64,000 bases of DNA from Bacillota bacterium (lineage in GTDB: Bacteria > Bacillota > Clostridia > Lachnospirales > Lachnospiraceae). Below, one piece after another: positions 311 to 54,999 of this stretch. The notes beneath the pieces are model-generated. The model was not told the DNA's origin. It saw only the letters and a program-made list of their open reading frames with translations, and made no database searches. Where the stretch lies: contig JAQXUQ010000004.1 in the NCBI GenBank assembly GCA_029224465.1, forward strand, positions 1 through 64,000, written 5' to 3'. Within the stretch, counting starts at the first letter, position 1. Every line of letters begins with the position of its first letter. Both the position numbers and the translations under genes were made by a program.

Positions 311-488
311 TTCAATACAATATCGCGTCGCCGGCTCATTCTGCATAGAAATTTAAAGACAAATTTCTAGTGCGGGCCGCCATTGCATAGAATTGCGGGA
401 TTTTAAGACAATACGGCCCGCACCATACAAATTTGCATAGATTTTCCAAGATGAAATTCATGGCAGAGGCGATATTGCAAGAATCGCC
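311..488. repeat. Dispersed palindromic element, subtype A, copy 1
   Basis: A 178-bp intergenic element nearly identical to the one at 10909-11086 (about nine differences by eye). The ends are inverted: TTCAATACAATATCGC on the left against GCGATATTGCAAGAA on the right. Nested arms follow: 342-355 against the AAATTCATGGCAGA block; AAATTTCTAG (361-370) against CCATACAAATTT; and a perfect stem GTGCGGGCCG (370-379) with CGGCCCGCAC (414-423). A fragment resembling the left end recurs at 524-545. It occupies most of the gene-free stretch 254-808. Function unknown. Confidence 0.85.
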
Positions 489-705
489 GGCCGCGCGCCG
501 CCCGCCCCCGCGCCCCGGCAGCATTCAATGCAATACCGCGTCGCCGCTGCGCTGCCTACCGCGCCGCGCCCTACCCCGCAGAGAATGTATAACATCCGCT
601 GATTATTCGCAAAATCTGTAAAATCTTTGTCCTCTCTTGCTGATATCATGGAAACGTAAAGTGCGGCGGCAGAAAGTGTATGCCGCGGCTAAGTGATGAC
701 ACAGG

Positions 706-773
706 TGCGCTGCGGCAGGAAGCCCTGCCGCAGCGCAGTGACCACGTAAAAGAGGAGATATACCTCTTCGTGG
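706..773 (+). promoter_or_regulatory. Two consecutive hairpins in the leader of the GH31/TRAP operon
   Basis: Hairpin 1 has a perfect 14-bp stem, TGCGCTGCGGCAGG (706-719) with its complement at 724-737 and an AAGC loop. Hairpin 2 pairs CCACG (742-746) plus AAGAGG (750-755) with CCTCTTCGTGG (763-773), leaving a short bulge. Neither has a U-tract, so they look like mRNA-stability or translation-control structures rather than terminators. They end 35 bases before the chosen start codon of the first GH31 gene. Confidence 0.6.
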
Positions 774-808
774 AGACGAAAATCTTCTTAAATACAAGGA
801 GGACCTCA

Positions 809-3346
809 ATGAAAGTTTGCTATCGCGCGGGAGCAGTAACGCAGAACAACGGCATAGCACACATCCAGACCAATGCGGTGGAAATCCGTGTGCTTTTTCT
901 GACAGACGACATTGTCCGGATCCGTGCCGGATTTGACGGAGACTGGGACGAGGCTTCTTACAGCCTTGCCATGACGGCATGGGATTCCAGAACCGATGAG
1001 CTTCTGAAAGACTACAGAAAGAGAGTGGAACTCTCGCCTTTATCGGTTACAGACGGCGAGGACCGCGCGGTTATTCAGGGAAGACGGCTCAAGGTTGTCG
1101 TCGAGAAAAATCCGATGCGCCTTCTGGTCTTCGATCAGGACGGATCGCTCCTGCACGCGGACATTCCAGATCTCGCTTACCGGCAGGATTCGAACGGCAG
1201 AAGAATTCACAGCTGTCAGATCGAGGCGGATGACTGCTTCTATGGCTTTGGCGAAAAGTCCGGAGAAATCAACAAAGCAGAAAAGTTCATGAACATGGCG
1301 CCCGGCGATGCGATGGGATATAACCCGAAGGAAACGGACTCGCTGTACAAGCATATCCCGTTCTATATCCGCCTGAACCGGACATCCAGACAGGCGGTCG
1401 GTTATTTCTACCACTGTACAGCCGAATGCGACTTCAACATGGGCAGGGAGAAGAGAAACTACTGGCACCGCTACGCGAGCTTCCGCGCGGATGCCGGAGA
1501 TATCGACCTGTTCCTGATCGCCGGACCTTCCATGAAAGACGTCATCCGGAGATATACGGATCTGACGGGCAAGTCTGTTCTGCTCCCCAAGGCGGCGCTC
1601 GGCTATCTTGGCAGCTCGATGTACTATCCGGAACTGCCCAAGGACAGCGACGACGCGGTGCTTGCGTTCATTGACACGACAAAAGAAGAGGGAATCCCGG
1701 TTGACGGATTCCAGCTTTCATCCGGCTACTGCGCGGTTGAGACCGGGCAGGGCATCAAACGCTGCTCTTTCACCTGGAATTACACAAGATTCAAGGATCC
1801 TGCGTCGTGGTTTGCGGCGATGAAAGAGCGCGGCATCACCGTTTCACCGAACATCAAGCCCGGCATGCTTTTAGTGCATCCGCTGCTTGAAGAAATGAAA
1901 GCGAAAGACATGTTCATTAAGGCATCCGACGACAACCCCTGCGAAGAGGAACCTGCAAAGGGACTCGGCATCGGCACGTGGTGGGGCGGCCCCGGTGTTT
2001 TTGTGGACTTTACGAAGCCTTCCACGAGAAAATACTGGAAAGAATACATCACCGAACATCTTCTGAAATACGGCTGCGAGTCCATCTGGAACGACAACTG
2101 CGAATATGACAGCTGTGTTGATAAGGATGAGAAGGTTTGTTTTGAAGGGAAAGGCGGGACAATCGGTAACCTCAAGCCGGTCATGAGCAACATCATGTGC
2201 CAGCTCTCGAACGAGGCGATCGAAGAGTACAATCCGCAGGTCCGGCCGTTCTCGGTATGCCGCTCCGGACACGCCGGGATCCAGCGTTACGCGCAGGTAT
2301 GGACCGGCGATAACCTGACCTGCTGGGAAGCGCTGAAATACAATATTGCGACGATGCTGGGTATGGGACTTTCGGGCGTTGCGAACATCGGCTCCGACGT
2401 GGGCGGCTTCTATGGGCCGGCGCCTGAAGAAGAGCTGTTTGTCAGATGGGTGCAGAACGGGATTTTCATGCCCCGGTTCTCGATCCATTCGACGAATACG
2501 GACAACACGGTCACCGAGCCGTGGATGTACAGTAATCAGAAGCAGACAATCCGCGACGCGATTTCGTTCCGCTACCGCCTGAGTCCGTACCTGTATTCGC
2601 TGGAGTACCGCGCACATACGAGCGGCCTGCCGATCATGGAAGCGATGTTCCTCGCATTCCAGAACGACCCCGCAACGTATGACGAAGGTGTGGATTTCAT
2701 GCTCGGCGACAATCTTCTTGTCGCGAACGTGGTTGAAAAGGGCGCGAAGACACGTACGGTCCGCTTCCCTGTGCCGCAAAACAGTGCGGAACGCTTCTAC
2801 AACTTCTACACGAGAGAGCCGTATCAGCCCGGGGAAACCGTGGAGTTTCCGGTAGATATCACCAGCATTCCGCTGTTTGTTAAGAGCGGCGCAATTATTC
2901 CGATGTCGGAAAATCAGCTGATGAACCTGAAGACCGAAAAGGTGAGGGCGCTGCACATTCTGATGGCGCCGGATGTGGATTCCTCGTTTACGATGTACGA
3001 AGACGATGGCGTGTCGAATGCTTATGAGGACGGTGTTTTCCGCAAAACAGAAATCTCCGTCACAGCCGGCACCAGGACGGTCATCTCCTTCCGCTCCGAA
3101 GGAAGCTATGCGTCAACCGTGGAGAAGATTCATCTGGATGCGGTCCACAGAGAAAAAGCTCCTTTCTACGTGCAGATTGACGGACAGGAAATTCCGCATT
3201 TCCTGCACAGAAGAAAGTTTGAGGAAGCAGAGTGCGGCTGGTATTACAGCCAGCGGCTGAAATCCGTCGAAATTGTCTACCCGAATTCGAAGAAGGATCA
3301 TGAGGTACTGATTTCGTTCGAGCAGTTTGATTTAATAGGAATGTAA
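809..3346 (+). CDS. Glycoside hydrolase family 31 (alpha-glucosidase/alpha-xylosidase type), copy 1
   Basis: This 845-residue protein is a retaining alpha-glycosidase of family GH31. The catalytic core shows the nucleophile region IWNDNCEYD (Asp429) and the acid/base region RSGHAGIQRY...VWTGDN (Asp501). The 72-residue gap between them suits the family. The N-terminal beta-sandwich domain contains FYGFGEKSG, and the C-terminal part carries beta domains including MYEDDG. The frame stays open 43 codons further up, but the ATG used here follows AAGGAGG at a proper distance. No signal peptide is seen, so it should act in the cytoplasm on imported glycosides. It heads a cluster with a TRAP carrier and a second GH31. 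TRAP carriers usually move acids, so an acidic disaccharide substrate is an inference; plain alpha-glucosides or xylosides are possible. Confidence 0.9.
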   Translation: MKVCYRAGAVTQNNGIAHIQTNAVEIRVLFLTDDIVRIRAGFDGDWDEASYSLAMTAWDSRTDELLKDYRKRVELSPLSVTDGEDRAVIQGRRLKVVVEKNPMRLLVFDQDGSLLHADIPDLAYRQDSNGRRIHSCQIEADDCFYGFGEKSGEINKAEKFMNMAPGDAMGYNPKETDSLYKHIPFYIRLNRTSRQAVGYFYHCTAECDFNMGREKRNYWHRYASFRADAGDIDLFLIAGPSMKDVIRRYTDLTGKSVLLPKAALGYLGSSMYYPELPKDSDDAVLAFIDTTKEEGIPVDGFQLSSGYCAVETGQGIKRCSFTWNYTRFKDPASWFAAMKERGITVSPNIKPGMLLVHPLLEEMKAKDMFIKASDDNPCEEEPAKGLGIGTWWGGPGVFVDFTKPSTRKYWKEYITEHLLKYGCESIWNDNCEYDSCVDKDEKVCFEGKGGTIGNLKPVMSNIMCQLSNEAIEEYNPQVRPFSVCRSGHAGIQRYAQVWTGDNLTCWEALKYNIATMLGMGLSGVANIGSDVGGFYGPAPEEELFVRWVQNGIFMPRFSIHSTNTDNTVTEPWMYSNQKQTIRDAISFRYRLSPYLYSLEYRAHTSGLPIMEAMFLAFQNDPATYDEGVDFMLGDNLLVANVVEKGAKTRTVRFPVPQNSAERFYNFYTREPYQPGETVEFPVDITSIPLFVKSGAIIPMSENQLMNLKTEKVRALHILMAPDVDSSFTMYEDDGVSNAYEDGVFRKTEISVTAGTRTVISFRSEGSYASTVEKIHLDAVHREKAPFYVQIDGQEIPHFLHRRKFEEAECGWYYSQRLKSVEIVYPNSKKDHEVLISFEQFDLIGM

Positions 3347-3355
3347 AGATAGCGG

Positions 3356-3378
3356 GCGCCGGCGGAAGCCGGCGCTTT
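3356..3378 (+). terminator. GC-rich hairpin after GH31 copy 1
   Basis: A perfect 8-bp stem GCGCCGGC / GCCGGCGC with GGAA loop is followed by only TTT, so it is probably a partial terminator or mRNA end-stabiliser between the GH31 gene and the next gene. Confidence 0.55.
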
Positions 3379-3560
3379 ACTTGTGTCCGCCCCGCGCAGC
3401 CGCGCGGGCCTCACAGCAAGATATGTATAAAAATCGCCCATCAAGAGCTGAAAATGTAAAGCCTTGCACAACGCCGCAGTGTAAAATGCTTGCATAAAGA
3501 AATGAATTTTCGATTAATTTCCTTAAAAAGAAATAAATTATGTGATTAAAAGGAGCCAAG

Positions 3561-4112
3561 TTGAACAAAGTCAGGTATTCCTGCAGCATTCAGCATACCC
3601 CGCATACAATTCAGGTTATGTTTTGCACGCAATATGACCAGTACCGGAAGAAACAGGAGTTTGCAATTGTCGCGGCAGGGATTGCGCTGGTGGCACTGGC
3701 GGTTTTGCTGCCTGTGCCGAAAGTCCTGCGGATTCTGCTGCTTGCGGCGGGCGGCTGGGTCATTGTCAGCCGTAACTTTCCCGCGGTAATGCGGGCTTCG
3801 GACACTGTGGAAGCAAGAACGAAGTCCGGCATGCAGCTCCCTGCTTACCGGTACGAATTCTATGACGATCATCTGCGGCTGTCCGGCGAAGGCAGCATGG
3901 CAATTCCGTATGAGAGCATCGGGCGGCTGGTGGAGGACAAGAAATATTACTATCTGTTTACCGGGCCGGACACAGTCATGATGCTGGACCGCAGTACGAT
4001 CGGAAGCGGACAGGAGGAATTCCGGAAGTTTTTGCAGGAAAAGACCGGAAAAGAATTCAGAAGAGCAAGAAATCTCTTGCTGACAACGCTGCGGGATCTG
4101 CTTGGGCAGTAG
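3561..4112 (+). CDS. YcxB-like small membrane protein
   Basis: A 183-residue protein starting at TTG just after AAAAGGAGCC. Residues about 33-72 form one or two hydrophobic membrane segments. The C-terminal half has the pattern of the YcxB-like domain: YRYEFYDDHLRL, then AIPYESIGRLVEDKKYYYLF, and a GQEEFRKFLQEK tail. The family has no established function. It sits between the first GH31 gene and the TRAP genes on the same strand, with a hairpin on each side, so co-transcription is possible but not certain. It may be a bystander rather than part of the sugar pathway. Confidence 0.7.
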   Translation: MNKVRYSCSIQHTPHTIQVMFCTQYDQYRKKQEFAIVAAGIALVALAVLLPVPKVLRILLLAAGGWVIVSRNFPAVMRASDTVEARTKSGMQLPAYRYEFYDDHLRLSGEGSMAIPYESIGRLVEDKKYYYLFTGPDTVMMLDRSTIGSGQEEFRKFLQEKTGKEFRRARNLLLTTLRDLLGQ

Positions 4113-4140
4113 CGCGGGGCGCACCCTATAAACGACAGTA

Positions 4141-4161
4141 ACCTGATGCCGGAAATCAGGT
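4141..4161 (+). promoter_or_regulatory. Small hairpin before dctP
   Basis: ACCTGAT / ATCAGGT with a 7-base loop lies 25 bases before the dctP start and just before its AAGGAGG. It may affect mRNA stability or translation; no U-tract follows. Confidence 0.35.
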
Positions 4162-4186
4162 GAGGTAAATACAAGGAGGATAATAT

Positions 4187-5212
4187 ATGAGACGATTCCA
4201 AATGGCGGCGCTCGCCATTGTAAGCGCCGCGATCGTTGGCCTGACCGGATGCGCGAACGCCACGCCTTCCGTCAACGCAAACGGTGAGAAAATCACCAAA
4301 CTGAAAATCGGTCATAACCTGGCCGAGGACCACGCGGTCAACATCGCGATCGAAGGAATGGCGGATGAAATCAAGAAAACATCCGGTGACACCGTGGAAA
4401 TGCAGATTTACCCGAACGGCATCCTGGGCTCCGAAACCGATATGATTCTGCAGATTCAGGCCGGCGCTCTGGACATGGCAAAGGTTTCCGCTTCGACGCT
4501 GGGCAACTTCAGCAGCGAGTTCAACGCGTTTTCGGTGCCGTATGTTTTTGACGACAGGGATCACTTCTACAAGTTCATGGATTCCGATGCGGCGAAGGAA
4601 GTTTTCCAGTCCACAAGAGATCAGGGATTCATCGCGCTGACCTGGCTCGATTCAGGCGCGCGCTCTTTCTACACGGCCAAGAGAGCGATCCGCGAGCCTT
4701 CCGACCTCAAAGGCCTCAAGATCCGTACAATGGATTCCAAGATGGCCATTGAAATGATGAAGGACCTCGGCGGCTCCGCAACGGTTATGGGTTACTCCGA
4801 TATCTACACGGGCCTGCAGCAGGGCGTCATCGACGGCGCGGAAAACAACATTACCGCCCTTCGTGACCACGGCGAAGTAAGCAAGTATTACTGCTACGAT
4901 GAGCACACAAGAATTCCGGATATTGTGATCATCTCGACAAAGGTATGGGACAGCCTGACACCTGAGCAGCAGGAGGAGCTGCAGACCGCCGCGAACAACA
5001 TGACCGAGAAGTACAAGAAGTCCTGGGCGGATTTCGAGGCACAGGTCAAGCAGGACGCAGAGTCCAAGTTCCATGTTACGTTCGTGGAAGACGTCGACAA
5101 GGCAGCGTTCCAGAAGGCATGCCAGCCGATCTACGACGAACTCAAGACTTCGGATCCTGACTGCTACAAGGTTGTGGAAGCCATCCGCGGGATGGCAGAC
5201 AGCGCGTCCTAA
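4187..5212 (+). CDS. dctP: TRAP transporter substrate-binding lipoprotein (DctP family), system 1
   Basis: A 341-residue extracytoplasmic binding protein. It has a short signal peptide ending in lipobox LTGC (Cys22), so it should be lipid-anchored outside the membrane. The DctP family pattern is clear: 'LKIGHNLAEDHAVNIA' near the N-terminus, YPNGILGSETDMILQIQAG, the ligand-binding segment DLKGLKIRTMDSKMAIEM with Arg, and the GYSDIYTGLQQGVIDGAENN block. The binding protein captures the solute and hands it to DctQM. The family mostly binds carboxylates such as uronates or aldonates through the conserved Arg. It starts after AAGGAGG and is followed 11 bases later by dctQ. The flanking GH31 genes suggest a sugar-acid-containing ligand. 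Confidence 0.93.
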   Translation: MRRFQMAALAIVSAAIVGLTGCANATPSVNANGEKITKLKIGHNLAEDHAVNIAIEGMADEIKKTSGDTVEMQIYPNGILGSETDMILQIQAGALDMAKVSASTLGNFSSEFNAFSVPYVFDDRDHFYKFMDSDAAKEVFQSTRDQGFIALTWLDSGARSFYTAKRAIREPSDLKGLKIRTMDSKMAIEMMKDLGGSATVMGYSDIYTGLQQGVIDGAENNITALRDHGEVSKYYCYDEHTRIPDIVIISTKVWDSLTPEQQEELQTAANNMTEKYKKSWADFEAQVKQDAESKFHVTFVEDVDKAAFQKACQPIYDELKTSDPDCYKVVEAIRGMADSAS

Positions 5213-5223
5213 GGAGGAACAGC

Positions 5224-5724
5224 ATGAAAAAGGTAAATAAAATGATCGACGGCGTGATGCGTTTCCTGATGGCAGTGTCCATGTTCGCGCTGATCGCAGG
5301 CGGTTTCTGGCAGATCTTCACCAGATGGATTCTGAAAAATCCCTCGACATTCACGGATGAATTCCTGCGCTATGTCCTGATCTGGGCTTCGATGATCGGC
5401 TCGGCATATTGCTTTTACACCGATCAGCATCTGGCGCTGGACCTTTTAAAGAGCAAAACACACGGCTCCTTCAAACTCATCCTGAACATCTTCATTGAAG
5501 GCTGCGTTATGTTTTTCGTAATTTATGTCTTCATTCACGGCGGCATGATGCTTTCGAAATACAGCACAAACGCTTCTTCCGTTATGCACATCCCGTTCAA
5601 GGTGCTGTACGCGATTCTTCCGGCATCGGGCATCATGATCGTTGCGGCAAGAGTGCTCAAGTACGTGGAATACCTGCTGGACTACCGCAGCGCAAAAGCT
5701 GAAAAGGAGGGAGCAAAGAAATGA
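5224..5724 (+). CDS. dctQ: TRAP transporter small membrane subunit (DctQ family), system 1
   Basis: A 166-residue protein with four predicted membrane helices (about residues 14-34, 50-66, 86-108 and 123-143). It shows the DctQ signature: an Arg after helix 1 (TRWILKNP) and FTDEFLRYVLIWASMIGSAY. It forms the membrane complex with DctM. The gene follows dctP after AAGGAGGAACAGC and overlaps dctM by 4 bases (ATGA), which indicates translational coupling. Confidence 0.92.
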   Translation: MKKVNKMIDGVMRFLMAVSMFALIAGGFWQIFTRWILKNPSTFTDEFLRYVLIWASMIGSAYCFYTDQHLALDLLKSKTHGSFKLILNIFIEGCVMFFVIYVFIHGGMMLSKYSTNASSVMHIPFKVLYAILPASGIMIVAARVLKYVEYLLDYRSAKAEKEGAKK

Positions 5725-7034
5725 TTGGTCAGTCTATCGCGATCCTGTTCGGATCCTTTTTCGTCCTTTTGTTCGCGGGCGTGCCGATCTCGGTCGGTAT
5801 CGGCATTGCTTCGATCATTACAGGCTGCTTCTTCATTCCGGCCGACATTTTCTCGATTATTGCAGCGCAGAGATGTTTTTCCGGAATTGATTCCTTCTCC
5901 CTGCTTGCCCTTCCGTTCTTTATGATGGGCGGCAACATCATGAACAAAGGCGGTATCGCCAAGAGACTTGTCAGACTCGCAAGACTTGTTGTCGGCAAGG
6001 TCCCCGGATATCTGGCGGCGACCAATGTTCTCGCGAATATGTTCTTCGGCGCGATTTCCGGTTCGTCCGTTGCCGCGACTTCGGCCATGGGCTCCATCAT
6101 GAGCCCTCTTGAAAAAGAGGAAGGCTATGATCCGAACTACTCCGCGGCAGTCAATATCTGCTCGGCGCCGACCGGGATCCTGATTCCTCCGTCAGGTCCG
6201 CTTATCCTGTATTCGATCACGGCAGGCGGCGTTTCCGTCGCGGCTCTGTTCATGGGCGGATATTTCACGGGTGCGATTCTGGGTATCGCCGTTCTGATCG
6301 TGACGATTATCCTTGCAAAAAAGAAAGGTTACACGGCATCTCAGATCGAAGAGAAGGATCCTGCCGGGAAGATTCTTGCGGATTCGATTCCGTCTCTGCT
6401 CGCGGTCATCATCGTCATGGTCGGTATTCTTGCCGGCTGGTTCACAGCGACCGAGGCAGGCGTTGTCTGCATCCTGTACTGCACGATCCTTGCGATCTGC
6501 TACCGTGAAATCACTTTCCGTGACTACTACGACATGCTCGCGGACACCATGGTCAGTTCCTCGACCATCCTGTTCCTGATTTCGGCATCCACGATCATGT
6601 CCTACGTTATGTCCTTCACGGGCATTCCCGGAGCAATCTCGAATGCTTTGATGAGCGTTTCCAGCAACCGCTACGTCATTCTCCTGATCATGAACGTATT
6701 CCTTCTGGTCATGGGCATGTTCCTGGACCTGACACCCGCGGTTCTGATTTTCACACCGATCTTCCTGCCGATCGCGACCTCTGTCGGCATGGATCCGGTC
6801 CACTTCGGTCTGATGCTGATCATGAACCTCGGCATCGGCTCCGTAACGCCGCCGGTAGGTTCCTGCCTGTTCGTCGGCTGCGGTATCGCGCATACAAAGA
6901 TCGAGGGTGTTACCCCGTACATCGTGAAGATCTTCTTTGCCATGGTGGCAGCGCTGTTCGCTGTTACCTTCATCCCGGCAATCCCGATGATCATCCCGTA
7001 CCTGCTCGGTCTGGTAGACAAATTCTGGTGGTAA
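5721..7034 (+). CDS. dctM: TRAP transporter large permease (DctM family), system 1
   Basis: A 437-residue polytopic permease of the usual length. Family blocks are visible: FSLLALPFFMMGGNIMNKGG, ANMFFGAISGSSVAATSAMG, PTGILIPPSGPLILYS, and near the C-terminus NLGIGSVTPPVGSCLFVG. DctM couples solute import to an ion gradient, usually Na+. The gene overlaps dctQ by 4 bases and is followed by a strong intrinsic terminator, so dctPQM is a unit with reduced read-through into the second GH31 gene. Confidence 0.94.
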   Translation: MIGQSIAILFGSFFVLLFAGVPISVGIGIASIITGCFFIPADIFSIIAAQRCFSGIDSFSLLALPFFMMGGNIMNKGGIAKRLVRLARLVVGKVPGYLAATNVLANMFFGAISGSSVAATSAMGSIMSPLEKEEGYDPNYSAAVNICSAPTGILIPPSGPLILYSITAGGVSVAALFMGGYFTGAILGIAVLIVTIILAKKKGYTASQIEEKDPAGKILADSIPSLLAVIIVMVGILAGWFTATEAGVVCILYCTILAICYREITFRDYYDMLADTMVSSSTILFLISASTIMSYVMSFTGIPGAISNALMSVSSNRYVILLIMNVFLLVMGMFLDLTPAVLIFTPIFLPIATSVGMDPVHFGLMLIMNLGIGSVTPPVGSCLFVGCGIAHTKIEGVTPYIVKIFFAMVAALFAVTFIPAIPMIIPYLLGLVDKFWW

Positions 7035-7044
7035 ATTACCGCAT

Positions 7045-7077
7045 GGGGCAGCGCCGCAAGGCCTGCCCCGTTTTTTT
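7045..7077 (+). terminator. Intrinsic terminator after dctM (likely partial)
   Basis: The stem GGGGCAG / CTGCCCC with an internal GC-rich loop is followed by seven T. It lies 18 bases before the next start codon and abuts that gene's ribosome site, so it would attenuate rather than separate the next gene. Confidence 0.8.
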
Positions 7078-7094
7078 ATAAGGAGAAGTTCATC

Positions 7095-9614
7095 ATGCTG
7101 CTCAAAGAGTACAAATCGATCGTCAAAACAGAGAACGGCTACATCATCCACGCTGATGCTGCAGATCTGATGCTTGTTTTTCTGCAGGAAGACGTCATCC
7201 GCATCCGCGTTTCATTTGACAGGACATTTCCGGAGGCATCGTACGCGCTGGTAACAACCGCCTGGGAAGACCGGCTGGACCCGCTGTTCGAAGGCGAAAG
7301 GAAGCGGATCACCGCGCTGGACGTTCCTTATGAAGAAGAGAACAACAAACTGGTGTTCCACACCGGTGCCCTGCGCCTTGTTATGAGAAAGCGCCCGCTT
7401 TCGTTCCTTCTTTATGATGACAAAACCGGCGAACAGCTGTATGCCGATCTCAGGGAAAGAGCTTTTGAAAAGGATCAGCTGGGCCGCGTTTCCCATTACT
7501 CGCTGATGGACCGCGCGAAGGACCATTTTTACGGCTTCGGCGAGAAAACAGGTTACCTGGACAAAAAGGGCAGGCGCCTGCGTATGTCGCCCAAGGACGC
7601 GATCGGTCACGATCCGGAATTCGGCGATCCGATGTACAAACACATTCCGTTTTACATTCGTCTGAACGAGGAGACGCTGCATCCTGTCGGACTGTTTTAT
7701 AACAATTCATATGACTGCGTCTTCGATATGGGGCAGGAAATCAGCGGCTACTGGGACCGCTACTGCTACTATCAGGCGGACGGCGGTGATATCGATCTGT
7801 TCCTGATGACCGGTAAAACAATCCGCGACGTCGTCGAACACTACACCTGGCTGACCGGCAGAACCGTGCTGCCGACCAAGCAGTCGCTCGGCTACTGCGC
7901 GTCCACCATGTACTACGCCGAGCTCGAAAAGGACTGCGACCAGGAAATCTACCGTGTCATCGACAAGCACGAGAAAGAAGATATTCCGATCGACAACTTC
8001 TGGCTCGCGTCCGGGTATTCCTCCGGAGAAGAGGACAACCTTCGCTATACCTTCAACTGGAATCACAAACGCTTCCCGGACCCGAAGGAGTTCTTCGACA
8101 GGATGTCGGCGCGCGGCGTCAACGTGATCTGCAATTTGAAGCCCGGTGTTTTGAAGAATCATCCGTATGCAGACTTCTACGAGCAGAGAAACGCGTTCAT
8201 CAAGACGCCGGACGGCAAAAGCGACTATTACGGCCGCTGGTGGGGCGGCGAAGGACGCTTCATCGACTTTACAGGAAAAGCAGGCCGGGACGCCTGGAAA
8301 GAACTCCTCGATAAAACAATCCTCTCCATGGGTGAAAAGACCGTCTGGAATGACAACTGCGAGATGGACGGCGTTGAAGACAGGAGCGCTTACTGCGATT
8401 TTGAAGGGCAGGGCGGCACGATGGCCGAGCTCAAGATCATTCATTCCAACATGATGGCGTGGCTCGGCAGAAAAGCCCTCCTTGAAAAATGGAAGGGGGA
8501 GCGGCCGTATGTCATCAACCGCGCCGGCTTTGCCGGTATTCAGCGCTACGCGCAGGTCTGGGGCGGCGACAATCTCACGGACTGGCGCACGGTCAAGTTT
8601 AATATCGATACGATTCTCGGTATGGGACTGTCCGGCTGCGCGAACATGGGATGCGACATCGGCGGCTTTACAGGTCCCGCGCCGACCGAGGAGATGCTGC
8701 TCCGCTGGATCCAGACCGCGATTTTCCAGCCCCGTTTTGTCATCAACTCCGCGAATACGGACAATACCGTGACGCAGCCGTGGATGTATGAGGAAGATCT
8801 GCCGTATATCCGCCGTGCGTTCCACCTGCGCTATCAGATGCTGCCGTATCTGTATTCGCTGATGCGGGAAGCCAGTGTGGACGGCGCTCCGGTTATGCGG
8901 CCGCTCTTTTATGAGTTCCCGCAGGACAAAAACCTTTACAGCGACCGTCACATGGAATTCATGTTCGGACCGTCGGTTCTTGTCGCGAATGTCGTGGAAG
9001 AAGGCGCGAAAACAAGGGAAGTATATCTTCCTGCCGGCGCAGTCTGGTATGACATGGCCGACAATATGAAGCAGTACGAAGGCGGGCAGACGATCGTGAT
9101 CCCTGTTGACAAGGACAGCATTCCGATGTTTTTGCGCGGGTCAGGCATTTTCATGACGACCGGCGACATCAAAAAGATCACGAAGGATGCGATGCGTCAT
9201 CTGGATATCCTGATCGGCGCGCAGGAAGACGCTTCGTTTGACTTCTATGACGACGACGGACATACGATGCAGTATGAAGACGGCGTTTACGCGCTGACGA
9301 AAATCGAGGTAACAAGCGGAGAAAGAACAAAGGTCCGCTTCCGCAAGAGCGGAAGCTATGCTTCCACGGTGCAGCAGATTCAGCTGCGTGTCGTGAGCAA
9401 GGAGAAGGGCGCTTACTGGTGCGATGTCTGCGGCCGCAGGCTCCCCCGCTTTATCGTAAAGGACGACTTCGATGCGGCGCGGGAAGGCTGGTTCTACAAC
9501 ATGCCGGACCGCACGGTCCTTGTGAAGTTTGACCGCCCGCAGCAGGATGACTTCGAGGTTACGGTGTCTACTGAAAAGTTTGATCTGGTGGGAATGGTGA
9601 AGCCGGAAGAGTAA
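7095..9614 (+). CDS. Glycoside hydrolase family 31, copy 2
   Basis: An 839-residue paralogue of the gene at 809. It has the same layout: FYGFGEKTG in the N-terminal sandwich, VWNDNCEMD with nucleophile Asp420, NRAGFAGIQRYAQVWGGDN with acid/base Asp492, and C-terminal beta domains with FYDDDG. No signal peptide is visible, so a cytoplasmic enzyme is expected. The start follows AAGGAG. The two copies differ in loops (for example one lacks the extra CEEEPAKGLGIG segment of copy 1), which hints at different linkages or aglycones. It is the last gene of the cluster and converges on an AraC regulator. Confidence 0.9.
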   Translation: MLLKEYKSIVKTENGYIIHADAADLMLVFLQEDVIRIRVSFDRTFPEASYALVTTAWEDRLDPLFEGERKRITALDVPYEEENNKLVFHTGALRLVMRKRPLSFLLYDDKTGEQLYADLRERAFEKDQLGRVSHYSLMDRAKDHFYGFGEKTGYLDKKGRRLRMSPKDAIGHDPEFGDPMYKHIPFYIRLNEETLHPVGLFYNNSYDCVFDMGQEISGYWDRYCYYQADGGDIDLFLMTGKTIRDVVEHYTWLTGRTVLPTKQSLGYCASTMYYAELEKDCDQEIYRVIDKHEKEDIPIDNFWLASGYSSGEEDNLRYTFNWNHKRFPDPKEFFDRMSARGVNVICNLKPGVLKNHPYADFYEQRNAFIKTPDGKSDYYGRWWGGEGRFIDFTGKAGRDAWKELLDKTILSMGEKTVWNDNCEMDGVEDRSAYCDFEGQGGTMAELKIIHSNMMAWLGRKALLEKWKGERPYVINRAGFAGIQRYAQVWGGDNLTDWRTVKFNIDTILGMGLSGCANMGCDIGGFTGPAPTEEMLLRWIQTAIFQPRFVINSANTDNTVTQPWMYEEDLPYIRRAFHLRYQMLPYLYSLMREASVDGAPVMRPLFYEFPQDKNLYSDRHMEFMFGPSVLVANVVEEGAKTREVYLPAGAVWYDMADNMKQYEGGQTIVIPVDKDSIPMFLRGSGIFMTTGDIKKITKDAMRHLDILIGAQEDASFDFYDDDGHTMQYEDGVYALTKIEVTSGERTKVRFRKSGSYASTVQQIQLRVVSKEKGAYWCDVCGRRLPRFIVKDDFDAAREGWFYNMPDRTVLVKFDRPQQDDFEVTVSTEKFDLVGMVKPEE

Positions 9615-9836
9615 TTGCCGGCGGGGCCGCACGCGGCCGGCGGCAAGGCTGCACGGCGTCGCGGCGTGCGTTACGGCAATGCGGCACGCTTGGCCGCGTG
9701 CTGTAAGCGCGTGGCAGACGTCCGGCGCCGCGGCGTACGCGTCAGGCGAAGCTGGCACGGCATTGCACCGTGTCGTGCCACGCCGTGAGCGCTGCTGTGA
9801 TCGCGCGTGCGCCATGCTGAAGGCCATATCATAGAG

Positions 9837-9865
9837 GAAAAGCCGGGCGGCAGCCCGGCTTTTTC
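9837..9865. terminator. Bidirectional terminator between GH31 copy 2 and the AraC gene
   Basis: A stem AGCCGGGC / GCCCGGCT with a short loop is flanked by AAAA on the left and TTTTT on the right, so it serves both converging genes. The preceding 9615-9836 is GC-rich with many CGGC/GCCG motifs; I see no gene in it. Confidence 0.85.
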
Positions 9866-9892
9866 TGAACCGTAAAGATGATGGATGCTGGA

Positions 9893-10723
9893 TTAGGAAG
9901 ATGATTTATGCAGCTCGCGGGCATGTTTTCTGTAAGCCGACGGTGTTTCGCCCGTAATCTGCTGAAAAATCCGGTTGAAATGTGTCAGACTTGCGAATCC
10001 CGTCTGCTCCGAAACCTGCGTGACGTTCAGATCGGTCTCCATGAACAGACGCTGTGCGTTCATGATGCGGGTCTGCTGGATGTACTGGACGATCGTGCGG
10101 CCGGTGACCTTGCGGAATTCCCGGCACATATAGTATTCGCTGATGTAGAAATGGGACGCAAGCTCCGGAAGCGAAAGCGGATCGGCATAATTCGAGTGGA
10201 TATATGCCATGATCTTCTGCATGCGGTTTTTGTTCTGGATGTAACCTTTCTCGTGGCTGGTCCGCAGAATCTTGAGAAGAAGGAGATTCAGCAGAGAGCG
10301 AAGATACGTGTCATGATATTCCTCTGCATTGTCCTTTTCTTCCAGCATGTCGAAAATCGTGCGGCGGATCCAGTGCAGCAGATGCGGATCAGGCCTGTAG
10401 AGGCCGCTCCCCTCCTTGGCGGCGGCAAGAAGCGCGGGATCACTGATCATTTCCGGTGTAAAGTAAATCACAACCCGTGAAAACGACGCGTCCTTGTCAC
10501 TGTAAGAATGATGCATGACGAGCGGCGCGAACAGCATAATGTCCCCCGGGACATTGTCAAACGCGACTCCGTTCAGCTGCTGGTGGCGGCTTCCGGAATC
10601 GAGAAAATACAACTCAAAATACTCATGGTAGTGGGAACGGGACATATTGTCGTTGACGCCGGAAATCTGTTCCAGCGCGATGCCTTTTCCCTGTGCCATT
10701 TCGGCCTGTGCGCTGTCAATCAT
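9893..10723 (-). CDS. AraC family transcriptional regulator
   Basis: A 276-residue regulator. The N-terminal half is a cupin-like sensing domain (HYHEYFELYFLDSGSRHQQLNG, then MLFAPLVMHHSY). The C-terminal 100 residues are two helix-turn-helix motifs of the AraC type (LSLPELASHFYISEYYMCREFRKV, and VTQVSEQTGFASLTHFNRIF). Such proteins bind DNA and change activity when a sugar fits the cupin. The ATG is preceded by AGAGG on this strand. It converges on the GH31/TRAP cluster, so local activation of that cluster is the simplest reading, but no operator was identified. Confidence 0.9.
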   Translation of the reverse strand: MIDSAQAEMAQGKGIALEQISGVNDNMSRSHYHEYFELYFLDSGSRHQQLNGVAFDNVPGDIMLFAPLVMHHSYSDKDASFSRVVIYFTPEMISDPALLAAAKEGSGLYRPDPHLLHWIRRTIFDMLEEKDNAEEYHDTYLRSLLNLLLLKILRTSHEKGYIQNKNRMQKIMAYIHSNYADPLSLPELASHFYISEYYMCREFRKVTGRTIVQYIQQTRIMNAQRLFMETDLNVTQVSEQTGFASLTHFNRIFQQITGETPSAYRKHARELHKSSS

Positions 10724-10908
10724 CTTTCTGGCCTCTCTTTGATAAGCATCGTTCCATTACAGGCATACACCTGATATGATCAGAATACTACAGCAAAAGC
10801 AAATGTCCTTCAAGGATGCAAAACAGCACCTTTGTCTCATCGCAAGGCAAGGCTTGCCTGGCCAGCGGAATGATCGGCCCCGCGCGCGGCGGCGGATCTG
10901 CCCGTCTG

Positions 10909-11086
10909 TTCAATGCAATATCGCGCCGCCGGCTTGATCTGCATAGAAATTTAAAGATAAATTTCTAGTGCAGGCCGCTATTGCATAGAATTGCGGGATT
11001 TTAAGACAATACGGCCTGCACCATACAAATTTGCATAGATTTTCCAAGATGAAATTCATGGCAGAGGCGATATTGCAAGAATCGCC
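10909..11086. repeat. Dispersed palindromic element, subtype A, copy 2
   Basis: Also 178 bp and about 95% identical to the copy at 311-488. The central stem reads GTGCAGGCCG / CGGCCTGCAC here against GTGCGGGCCG / CGGCCCGCAC there, so one pair changed on both arms (G-C to A-T). It fills most of the 539-base gap between the AraC gene and the Cys-rich small protein; the flanks are very GC-rich with no gene seen. Confidence 0.85.
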
Positions 11087-11262
11087 GCCCGCGCGCCGCT
11101 CGCCCCGCTCGCCGGCCACGCTCACCGAGCCGCGCCGCAAGCCGCGCCGGCCCCGCCGCGTCGCGCCCGCACATTTCCCCGAATTAGAATACACGAAAGC
11201 TTGCATGCGTGAGATAATAACAATGAGAGAGGGGAGAACGGAATAAAAGGAGCCATAAAGAC

Positions 11263-22742: not shown

Positions 22743-22911
22743 CAATGCAATAACGCCGGGAGTCCCGGATTTGCATAGAAAATCCAAGACGTTTCAGAAG
22801 ACGCGGAGCATATTGCATAGATTTGAGCCAAATCTATGCAATACAGCTCCGCGTAGTTGAAATGTCTTGAATTTTTCATGCGGAATGAGTCAGCGGCGGC
22901 TTATTGCATTA
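22743..22911. repeat. Dispersed palindromic element, subtype B, copy 1
   Basis: About 169 bp with inverted ends (AATGCAATAACGCCG against CGGCGGCTTATTGCATT). An outer stem uses CCAAGACGTTT with AAATGTCTTG. A central hairpin has CGCGGAGC / GCTCCGCG around TATTGCATAGATTTG / CAAATCTATGCAATA. It shares the words TTGCATAGA and ATCCAAGA with subtype A but is arranged differently. Its partner is 54661-54831. It sits in the gene-free stretch 22642-23233, whose only other item is the operator below. Confidence 0.82.
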
Positions 22912-23137
22912 AAAGCGGGCGGAAAGGCCTCTGGCGCCGCCGCATCCCCCACGCAAATTAGTATACACTTTATCTCGTCCACCCCGGAAACAGCATCACT
23001 ACATCGCCACCCCGCCAGACCCTCTCAATTAACTGGCTGAAGTGCACTATATAGTTGTTGAAATTCCAAATTAATAACATAATCTGCACAAACCATCTTG
23101 CTATTTCCATCTGTAAATAGTAATGTAGATTGCAGAA

Positions 23138-54660: not shown

Positions 54661-54831
54661 TTCATGCAATAGCGGGAGAAACGCTTGAATTGCATAGAGA
54701 ATCCAAGACATTTTGCAAGGTGCGGAGCGTAATGCCTAGATTTTGAAGAAATCTAGGCATTACAGCGCCGCACGGCAGAAACGTCTTGGAAAATTTATGC
54801 AAAATAAGCGCGCGGCGGCGTATTGCATTGA
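54661..54831. repeat. Dispersed palindromic element, subtype B, copy 2
   Basis: About 171 bp with ends TTCATGCAATA and TATTGCATTGA. The outer arms CCAAGACATTTTG and CAGAAACGTCTTGG pair as in copy 1. The centre is a perfect hairpin, AATGCCTAGATTT / AAATCTAGGCATT, whose bases differ from copy 1 on both arms. It fills most of the 367-base gap 54633-54999 between glpP and the FAD enzyme gene. Confidence 0.82.
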
Positions 54832-54999
54832 CCAGCCGCCGCAAACCGCACCGGCGCCGCTAGCCGCGCGCCGCCGCATGCAGGCTGGACATGGGCCGGC
54901 CGTCACAATCATTTGTTAGTTGTTCCGTACTGCTTTGGAGACGGGAGATGCAGGACGGGTGGAATACTTGTACGCTTTTTTCAAGGAGGTAATGGAACA

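Follow-up and report, generated by a model that had tools for sequence, protein, structure and literature searches.

What is the long palindrome that stands on either side of a GH31/TRAP module near the start of this contig, and does anything keep it there? The window, the whole stretch of DNA analyzed, is the first 64 kb of one contig (C4:1-64000) of a source genome of 2.55 Mb in 34 contigs (G000, 96% complete). A sequence-only reading had described two 178-bp copies, at 311-488 and 10909-11086, differing at about nine sites, and had proposed either selection for a folded structure or a mobile miniature element. Both copies are indeed there, with exactly nine differences between them (at 317, 328, 337, 338, 339, 360, 374, 381 and 419 in the first copy). 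The paired change in the central stem on which that reading drew is also real: in copy 2, G374>A on one arm is accompanied by C419>T on the other. The extent of the copies needed correction: the 178-bp match exists, but the unit shared by the family is only 172–174 bp here, and the final four bases are shared flank. By repeat comparison and covariance model, copy 1 therefore occupies 311..484 and copy 2 occupies 10909..11082, both on the plus strand and both of subtype A. Between them, as had been noted, lie two GH31 genes and the TRAP genes DctP, DctQ and DctM, together with a gene for an AraC-type regulator. Long hairpins are predicted for both strands of both copies.

The covariance model located two further copies in the window, both of subtype B and on the minus strand (copy 3, 22743..22914; copy 4, 54661..54834), and BLAST found a 23-bp end fragment of another copy at 524..546 on the plus strand (91% identity over 23 bp). 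In the sister genome, G029 (87% complete), copies occur at the places matching copies 1 and 2, C28:58305 and C28:69010, 10.7 kb apart. GC-rich flanks (485-520 and 11083-11180 in the window) go with many copies, and at several sites of the sister genome these flanks are missing along with the element.

The search of the whole genome proposed in the earlier reading turned up many more copies, so that an absence of other copies, which would have refuted that reading, does not apply. BLAST gave 14 matches at E ≤ 1e-3 in G000, and a covariance model built from 15 copies recognized at least 44 distinct full-length copies, a lower bound because 150 of 546 first-look candidates were scored. These two results exclude a chance origin of the repeat. 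The sister species RUG304 (an uncultured Lachnospiraceae, represented by G029) holds 23 copies, 3 of them truncated, so that the family comprises 67 copies, or 64 in alignment-based counts, from which the truncated ones were excluded. Our literature searches found no published description of such an element family, and nothing under the name "RUG304".

The family appears to be confined to these two species. It was present in 2 of 62 genus genomes, G000 and G029, in a survey that used stricter filters and scored 45 candidates per genome, and G029 was the sole carrier in another survey of 60 relatives (36 of the same genus and 24 of the same order). Other genus members match mainly the genes beside one copy, at 63–81% identity, and are too distant for intergenic alignment. 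A scan of genome contigs for the exact module pattern, which catches part of the copies, returned 19 stretches, 15 of them in RUG304 and one in RUG409. We take the other three (in Anaplasma, a cyanobacterium and a Clostridia MAG) for chance; the cyanobacterial and Clostridia stretches were inspected and have no palindrome. The RUG409 copy is the single one in 2.3 Mb, lies on a 5.4-kb contig (ONLK01000094.1) and is 96% identical to G029 C24:7542, and it is most simply explained as a mis-binned contig. It adjoins ORFs that resemble, by eye, cas3 and cas5 of a type I-C CRISPR system. A phage or plasmid origin is not supported, since the exact pattern had no match in viral contigs and one copy used as query had none in phages or plasmids.

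The element is regular. Its length is 171–173 bp in 63 of 67 copies, and among the 36 copies that are 172 bp long, 32 form a gap-free alignment of 172 columns (alignment A2, hand-chosen from equal-length copies and including none of subtype A). The alignment resolves six modules: M1 (ATGCAATA), M2 (TGCATAGA-WWW-TYCAAGAC), M3 (TATTGCATAGA), and M4, M5 and M6, which are near mirror images; the element ends read ATGCAATA/TATTGCAT. On the plus strand of copy 1, M1 (ATACAATA) forms the outer end at 315..322 (alignment columns 5-12), followed by M2 (TGCATAGAAATTTAAAGAC) at 342..360 (columns 32-50), M3 (CATTGCATAGA) at 381..391 (columns 71-81) and M4 (TTAAGACAATA) at 403..413 (columns 93-103). M5, at 433..451, was read in the sequence and from the list of flipped copies, being flipped as is typical of subtype A, and M6 (TATTGCAA), read in the sequence at 473..480 (family columns 162-169), forms the other outer end.

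The distances between modules hardly vary. AAGAC and TTGC are 22 nt apart in 75 of 76 matches, and the M1–M6 span is 164–166 in 58 of 59 scored copies (5 of the 64 were not scored). The M2–M3 offset is 41 in 58 of 61 scored copies of the 64, and the M4–M5 offset is 26 in all 56 scored, among which the 6 flipped copies are not included. The spacers are variable, with a median between-copy identity of 0.59 in G000. Columns 40-42, 82-83, 91-92, 121-122 and 132-133 are A or T, interchangeably, in nearly every copy. The outer module pair (columns 5-12/162-169) is paired in 97.7% of cells across 32 copies, so terminal inverted repeats are present, and the middle module arms are paired in 80.9%. In subtype A, which comprises 6 of 64 copies including both copies beside the GH31/TRAP genes, M5 is flipped yet conserved and lies 20 nt from M4, much as M2 lies 19 nt from M1 (by exact match at C22:12408 and by eye in others). 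The M1–M2 composite has 39 exact matches in G000, all within known copies or the partial copy C31:5989, and a reversed control pattern has none. A half-element at G029 C27:63709-63789 has M3 as its right end, which suggests that two units of about 81 bp, arranged head to head, make up the full element.

The covariation reported earlier for the palindrome stood between copies for the inner stem, but it did not extend to the outer spacers and was not accompanied by clear compensation between orthologues. The inner stem joins columns 57-69 to columns 104-116, and G374/C419 is its alignment pair 64/109. All on the plus strand, its 5′ arm spans 367..379 in copy 1 (with G374) and 10965..10977 in copy 2 (with A10972), and its 3′ arm spans 414..426 (with C419) and 11012..11024 (with T11017). 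In A2, the covariation score of this stem was 0.241 versus 0.166 in shuffles and its paired fraction 48.8% versus 43.1%, values that 0 of 500 shuffles reached in either case; it did not exceed shuffles in two-sided-change pairs (290/500) or in pair types (109/500). Shifting the partner by +1 column scored nearly as high (50.0% paired, covariation score 0.219), so the register of the stem varies or a bulge is present. In a register-free test, the duplex energy of a copy's own inner spacers was −17.4 kcal/mol, compared with −11.4 kcal/mol when spacers were swapped with those of distant copies (0/2000; 58 copies). The outer spacers gave −11.0 versus −10.8 kcal/mol (783/2000), and four control combinations gave 1144, 81, 1149 and 344 of 2000. 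We rejected the outer spacers as a paired stem, since they show neither covariation nor an excess of binding to their own partner. Between orthologues, 31 one-sided changes in the inner stem left the position paired only in G029 in 12 cases, only in G000 in 5, in both in 3 and in neither in 11, and two-sided changes kept the pair in both species in 1 of 7. Taken as a whole, the inner stem suggests, besides any protein array, a hairpin or cruciform, or upkeep of the palindrome by template switching.

The sister species allows the same loci to be compared directly. Families of short bacterial repeats are commonly taken for dormant parasites, and a sister species gives a same-locus test. Element-masked flanks link 20 G000 copies to 19 of the 23 G029 copies; C22:12311 and C22:13443 both map to one G029 copy, and 13443 is apparently the extra one. 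Divergence was measured in 15 of the 20 pairs, leaving aside two with truncated G029 copies, one with a shared partner, one chimera and one that aligns only when flipped. Four weaker pairs, whose flanks match over 172–311 bp, were left out of the orthologous set. In the 15 pairs, modules differ at 57 of 1139 sites (5.0%) and spacers at 180 of 1335 (13.5%; Fisher P 3e-13), and the difference is seen at A/T sites alone (4.5% versus 15.3%) as well as at G/C sites alone (6.1% versus 12.1%). The 120-bp flanks differ by 13.8%, a level that the spacers match. Over 2594 columns the element has 19 indel events, whereas the flanks have 165 over 2734 columns. The modules evolve about 2.7 times slower than the spacers, and the spacing hardly changes. 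Because modules diverge less than spacers at the same loci of two species, this comparison, made across one split, shows on sequence evidence that modules and spacing are held in place by purifying selection. The selection invoked in the sequence-only reading is supported as acting on the sequence and spacing of the six modules, but not on the fold as a whole.

We found no sign that the element is tied to the direction of transcription. Sixty of the 67 copies have a called ORF on both sides, in 23 tandem, 20 convergent and 17 divergent arrangements. At tandem sites the element lies on the same strand as the genes in 11 cases and on the opposite strand in 12, and with contexts this mixed a role linked to transcript direction is not supported. 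The ORFs were called by a greedy script rather than a gene finder, and calls of at least 180 aa overlap 7 of the 67 copies; nearly all copies stand between genes, but given these overlaps an intergenic position is not proven for each of them.

Our preferred explanation, to which we assign a probability of roughly 0.45, is that this lineage-specific dispersed repeat is kept as a multi-site platform for a putative sequence-specific DNA-binding protein and acts as double-stranded DNA. Such a platform should combine modules conserved at a fixed distance from one another with spacers free to vary, and this is what we found; boxes conserved at rigid spacing amid neutral spacers argue for a protein array on double-stranded DNA. 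The six modules would be the binding sites, with a bipartite site in which TGCATAG and CAAGAC boxes bracket an A/T tract and to which an outer ATGCAATA box, at a distance of 19 bp, is coupled, and the copy-specific inner stem may form a hairpin or cruciform at the element center. Since loci are shared and one paralogue pair has a clear boundary, we infer that the element spread as a unit of about 172 bp before the two sister species split. The bound protein might bridge or organize the chromosome, or insulate neighboring genes. The interchange of A and T in the tracts fits readout of double-stranded DNA; it is also compatible with RNA, because the A is, in some copies, opposite a T on the other arm. 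Several findings sit less easily with the protein-docking platform. Our survey detected no copy in 60 of 62 genus genomes, so the function of the family would be dispensable outside the clade. Copies have been lost or truncated in both species, and one of the 15 pairs, that of window copy 311, shows the opposite trend, with 8 module versus 4 spacer differences. Finally, a model made up of protein sites alone does not obviously call for covariation of the inner stem.

The strongest competitor, which we consider possible but unlikely, is a dormant MITE: a non-autonomous element bounded by terminal inverted repeats (TCTATGCAATA/TATTGCATAGA), in which the modules would serve as transposase sites and which would have no host function. 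Its inverted ends and the location of copies mostly between genes fit this description. Evidence for movement comes from two unlinked loci, C4_22743 (copy 3) and C24_63065, which are 84% identical inside the element and have unrelated flanks at both element ends. Because the similarity stops at both ends, the unit once dispersed as such; in other close paralogue pairs, one or both flanks are shared as well. The suggestion of a mobile miniature element thus survives as past dispersal of a discrete unit, on the strength of one clear pair, but neither target duplications nor a mobilizer were found. Across 64 copies and 1008 combinations, target duplications at the ends showed no convincing excess over shuffles (best z 4.5), which counts against a MITE. 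So does the lack of an autonomous relative with the same ends in G000, where the M1–M2 composite is confined to known copies, although that search misses a partner sharing only the 12-bp tip.

The fate of individual sites weighs on the same question. Among 24 unpaired G000 copies, 14 sites could be located in the sister genome, 7 with an element remnant (C5_1197, C4_54661, C10_67816, C6_84477, C6_83231, C10_100067 and C31_66359) and 7 without. At the site corresponding to C5_1197, G029 retains the two ends of the element; at those corresponding to C4_54661 and C10_67816, it retains 26 bp from a single end. The remnants indicate that these seven absences are deletions, not insertions in G000, and none of the 14 located sites is a clean pre-insertion site from which just the 172-bp unit is missing. 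At three sites (C19_71474, C22_13443 and C26_8519), the sister genome lacks a 249–382-bp segment comprising the element and flanks, with a nearly clean junction. These could be insertions, as the MITE account would have it, or deletions. Two G029 copies beyond the 19 linked ones have truncated G000 counterparts, recognized by their shared flanks. The conservation of modules in place, which is unexpected for dead copies, also tells against a MITE.

BOX, RUP and SPRITE of Streptococcus pneumoniae are argued, in the available part of PMC3049150, to be parasitic and enriched between convergent genes, with BOX being modularly expandable. The present family resembles them, as far as that part describes them, in being small, interspersed and strongly structured, in its restriction to one species and its nearest kin, a feature that favors a MITE, and in its slow current turnover. 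Compared by description, it differs from them in its fixed length, mixed contexts and modules constrained in place. The Correia element of Neisseria is likewise a short repeat with terminal inverted repeats, and the available part of PMC10969869 adds that it can carry a protein-binding site, for IHF. By description, six rigidly spaced modules set the present element apart from it, as does the absence of target duplications in 64 copies.

REP, BIME and REPIN elements, which are inverted intergenic repeats like ours, are mobilized by RAYT (PMC3733652, as far as the accessible text goes). The present unit, however, measures about 172 bp, against 20–40 bp in those elements, and its ends have no GTAG/CGTC tag. 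A RAYT-driven REP family was rejected because the Y1 transposase (PF01797, RAYT/IS200-type), present in 41 of 61 genus genomes, had no match in either carrier genome, G000 or G029. Two other genus genomes that were sampled in part, G028 and G014, have short dispersed repeats of their own; those of G028 include the GGGGACGGTCCTTTTGTTTC type, and this genome has 9 Y1_Tnp matches.

The ERIC repeat of enterobacteria, at 127 bp, is a palindromic intergenic repeat of similar size and is likewise present in tens to hundreds of copies. About 30 ERIC copies are given for K-12 in the accessible part of PMC10969869. One window copy searched against 20,395 E. coli records, which should hold ERIC, had no match at E ≤ 0.01.

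A narrower version of the protein-docking platform can also be considered. Supercoil domains are about 11 kb in size, and the copies might be fixed anchor sites of a clade-specific chromosome-organizing protein, with six coupled sites, an extrudable central hairpin and a neighbor distance of about 11 kb. We regard this version as doubtful. In the merged non-redundant set, 8 of 24 neighbor distances above 3 kb fall in 10.4–12.1 kb, a post hoc range, or 7 without the distance that depends on a remnant. For this count, tandem copies were merged, truncated copies and one remnant were included as sites, and distances below 3 kb were dropped. The excess was reached in 1 of 5000 sets under uniform placement and in 4–16 of 5000 under jittered placement at this width, which was chosen post hoc, and in 5–125 of 5000 at other widths. 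Spacings close to 11 kb occur on G000 contigs C10, C6 and C30 and on G029 contig C28. Strict periodicity was not significant in G000 alone, where 805 and 844 of 2000 random sets reached the observed values. The corresponding numbers were 24 and 20 of 2000 in G029 alone, with a best period of about 5.8 kb, 45 and 30 of 2000 for the two genomes pooled, which are not independent, and 131–140 of 3000 in the merged non-redundant set, again with a best period of 5.8 kb. A preferred neighbor distance near 11 kb is merely suggestive and serves as a lead only.

A structured RNA is an improbable reading of the element, and so is a hairpin that acts, once transcribed, on the stability or termination of mRNA. 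The inner stem covaries between copies, the module arms pair at the high rates given above (97.7% outer, 80.9% middle), and the predicted folds are strong. However, 6 of 64 copies have a flipped M5 that disrupts the M2–M5 helix, and covariation is absent from the outer spacers. Contexts are unbiased (23 tandem, 20 convergent and 17 divergent sites), as is the strand in tandem ones (11 versus 12). Because the flipped M5 is still conserved and the copies show no bias with respect to gene direction, we favor a protein array on double-stranded DNA over RNA. A known RNA family was rejected on the Rfam results: Rfam 15 gave no gathering-level match in the window and, at 4 loci, two matches at E ≤ 1, both far below the gathering score and outside the element.

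The least probable of the accounts considered here is upkeep of the palindrome without selection, in which template switching and ectopic recombination would make the inner stem and homogenize the modules. Some rearrangements speak for it. G029 C28:69010 is a chimera of two other copies, its left half and left flank being as at G000 C4:10909, its right half of the C30:115808 type and its right flank like that at G029 C23:33305. Tandem duplications of the element with its GC-rich flank are seen in G000 at C10:79451-79894 and C31:5703-7038. Template switching could also have produced the flipped module, and the lack of compensation between orthologues would fit, but homogenization would take the spacers along, yet these diverge at the flank rate, and at about 20 bp the modules offer little length for homologous recombination.

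The contrast between modules and spacers at shared loci makes it testable whether such repeats do anything for the host, and the modules show which bases to use to bait the putative protein.
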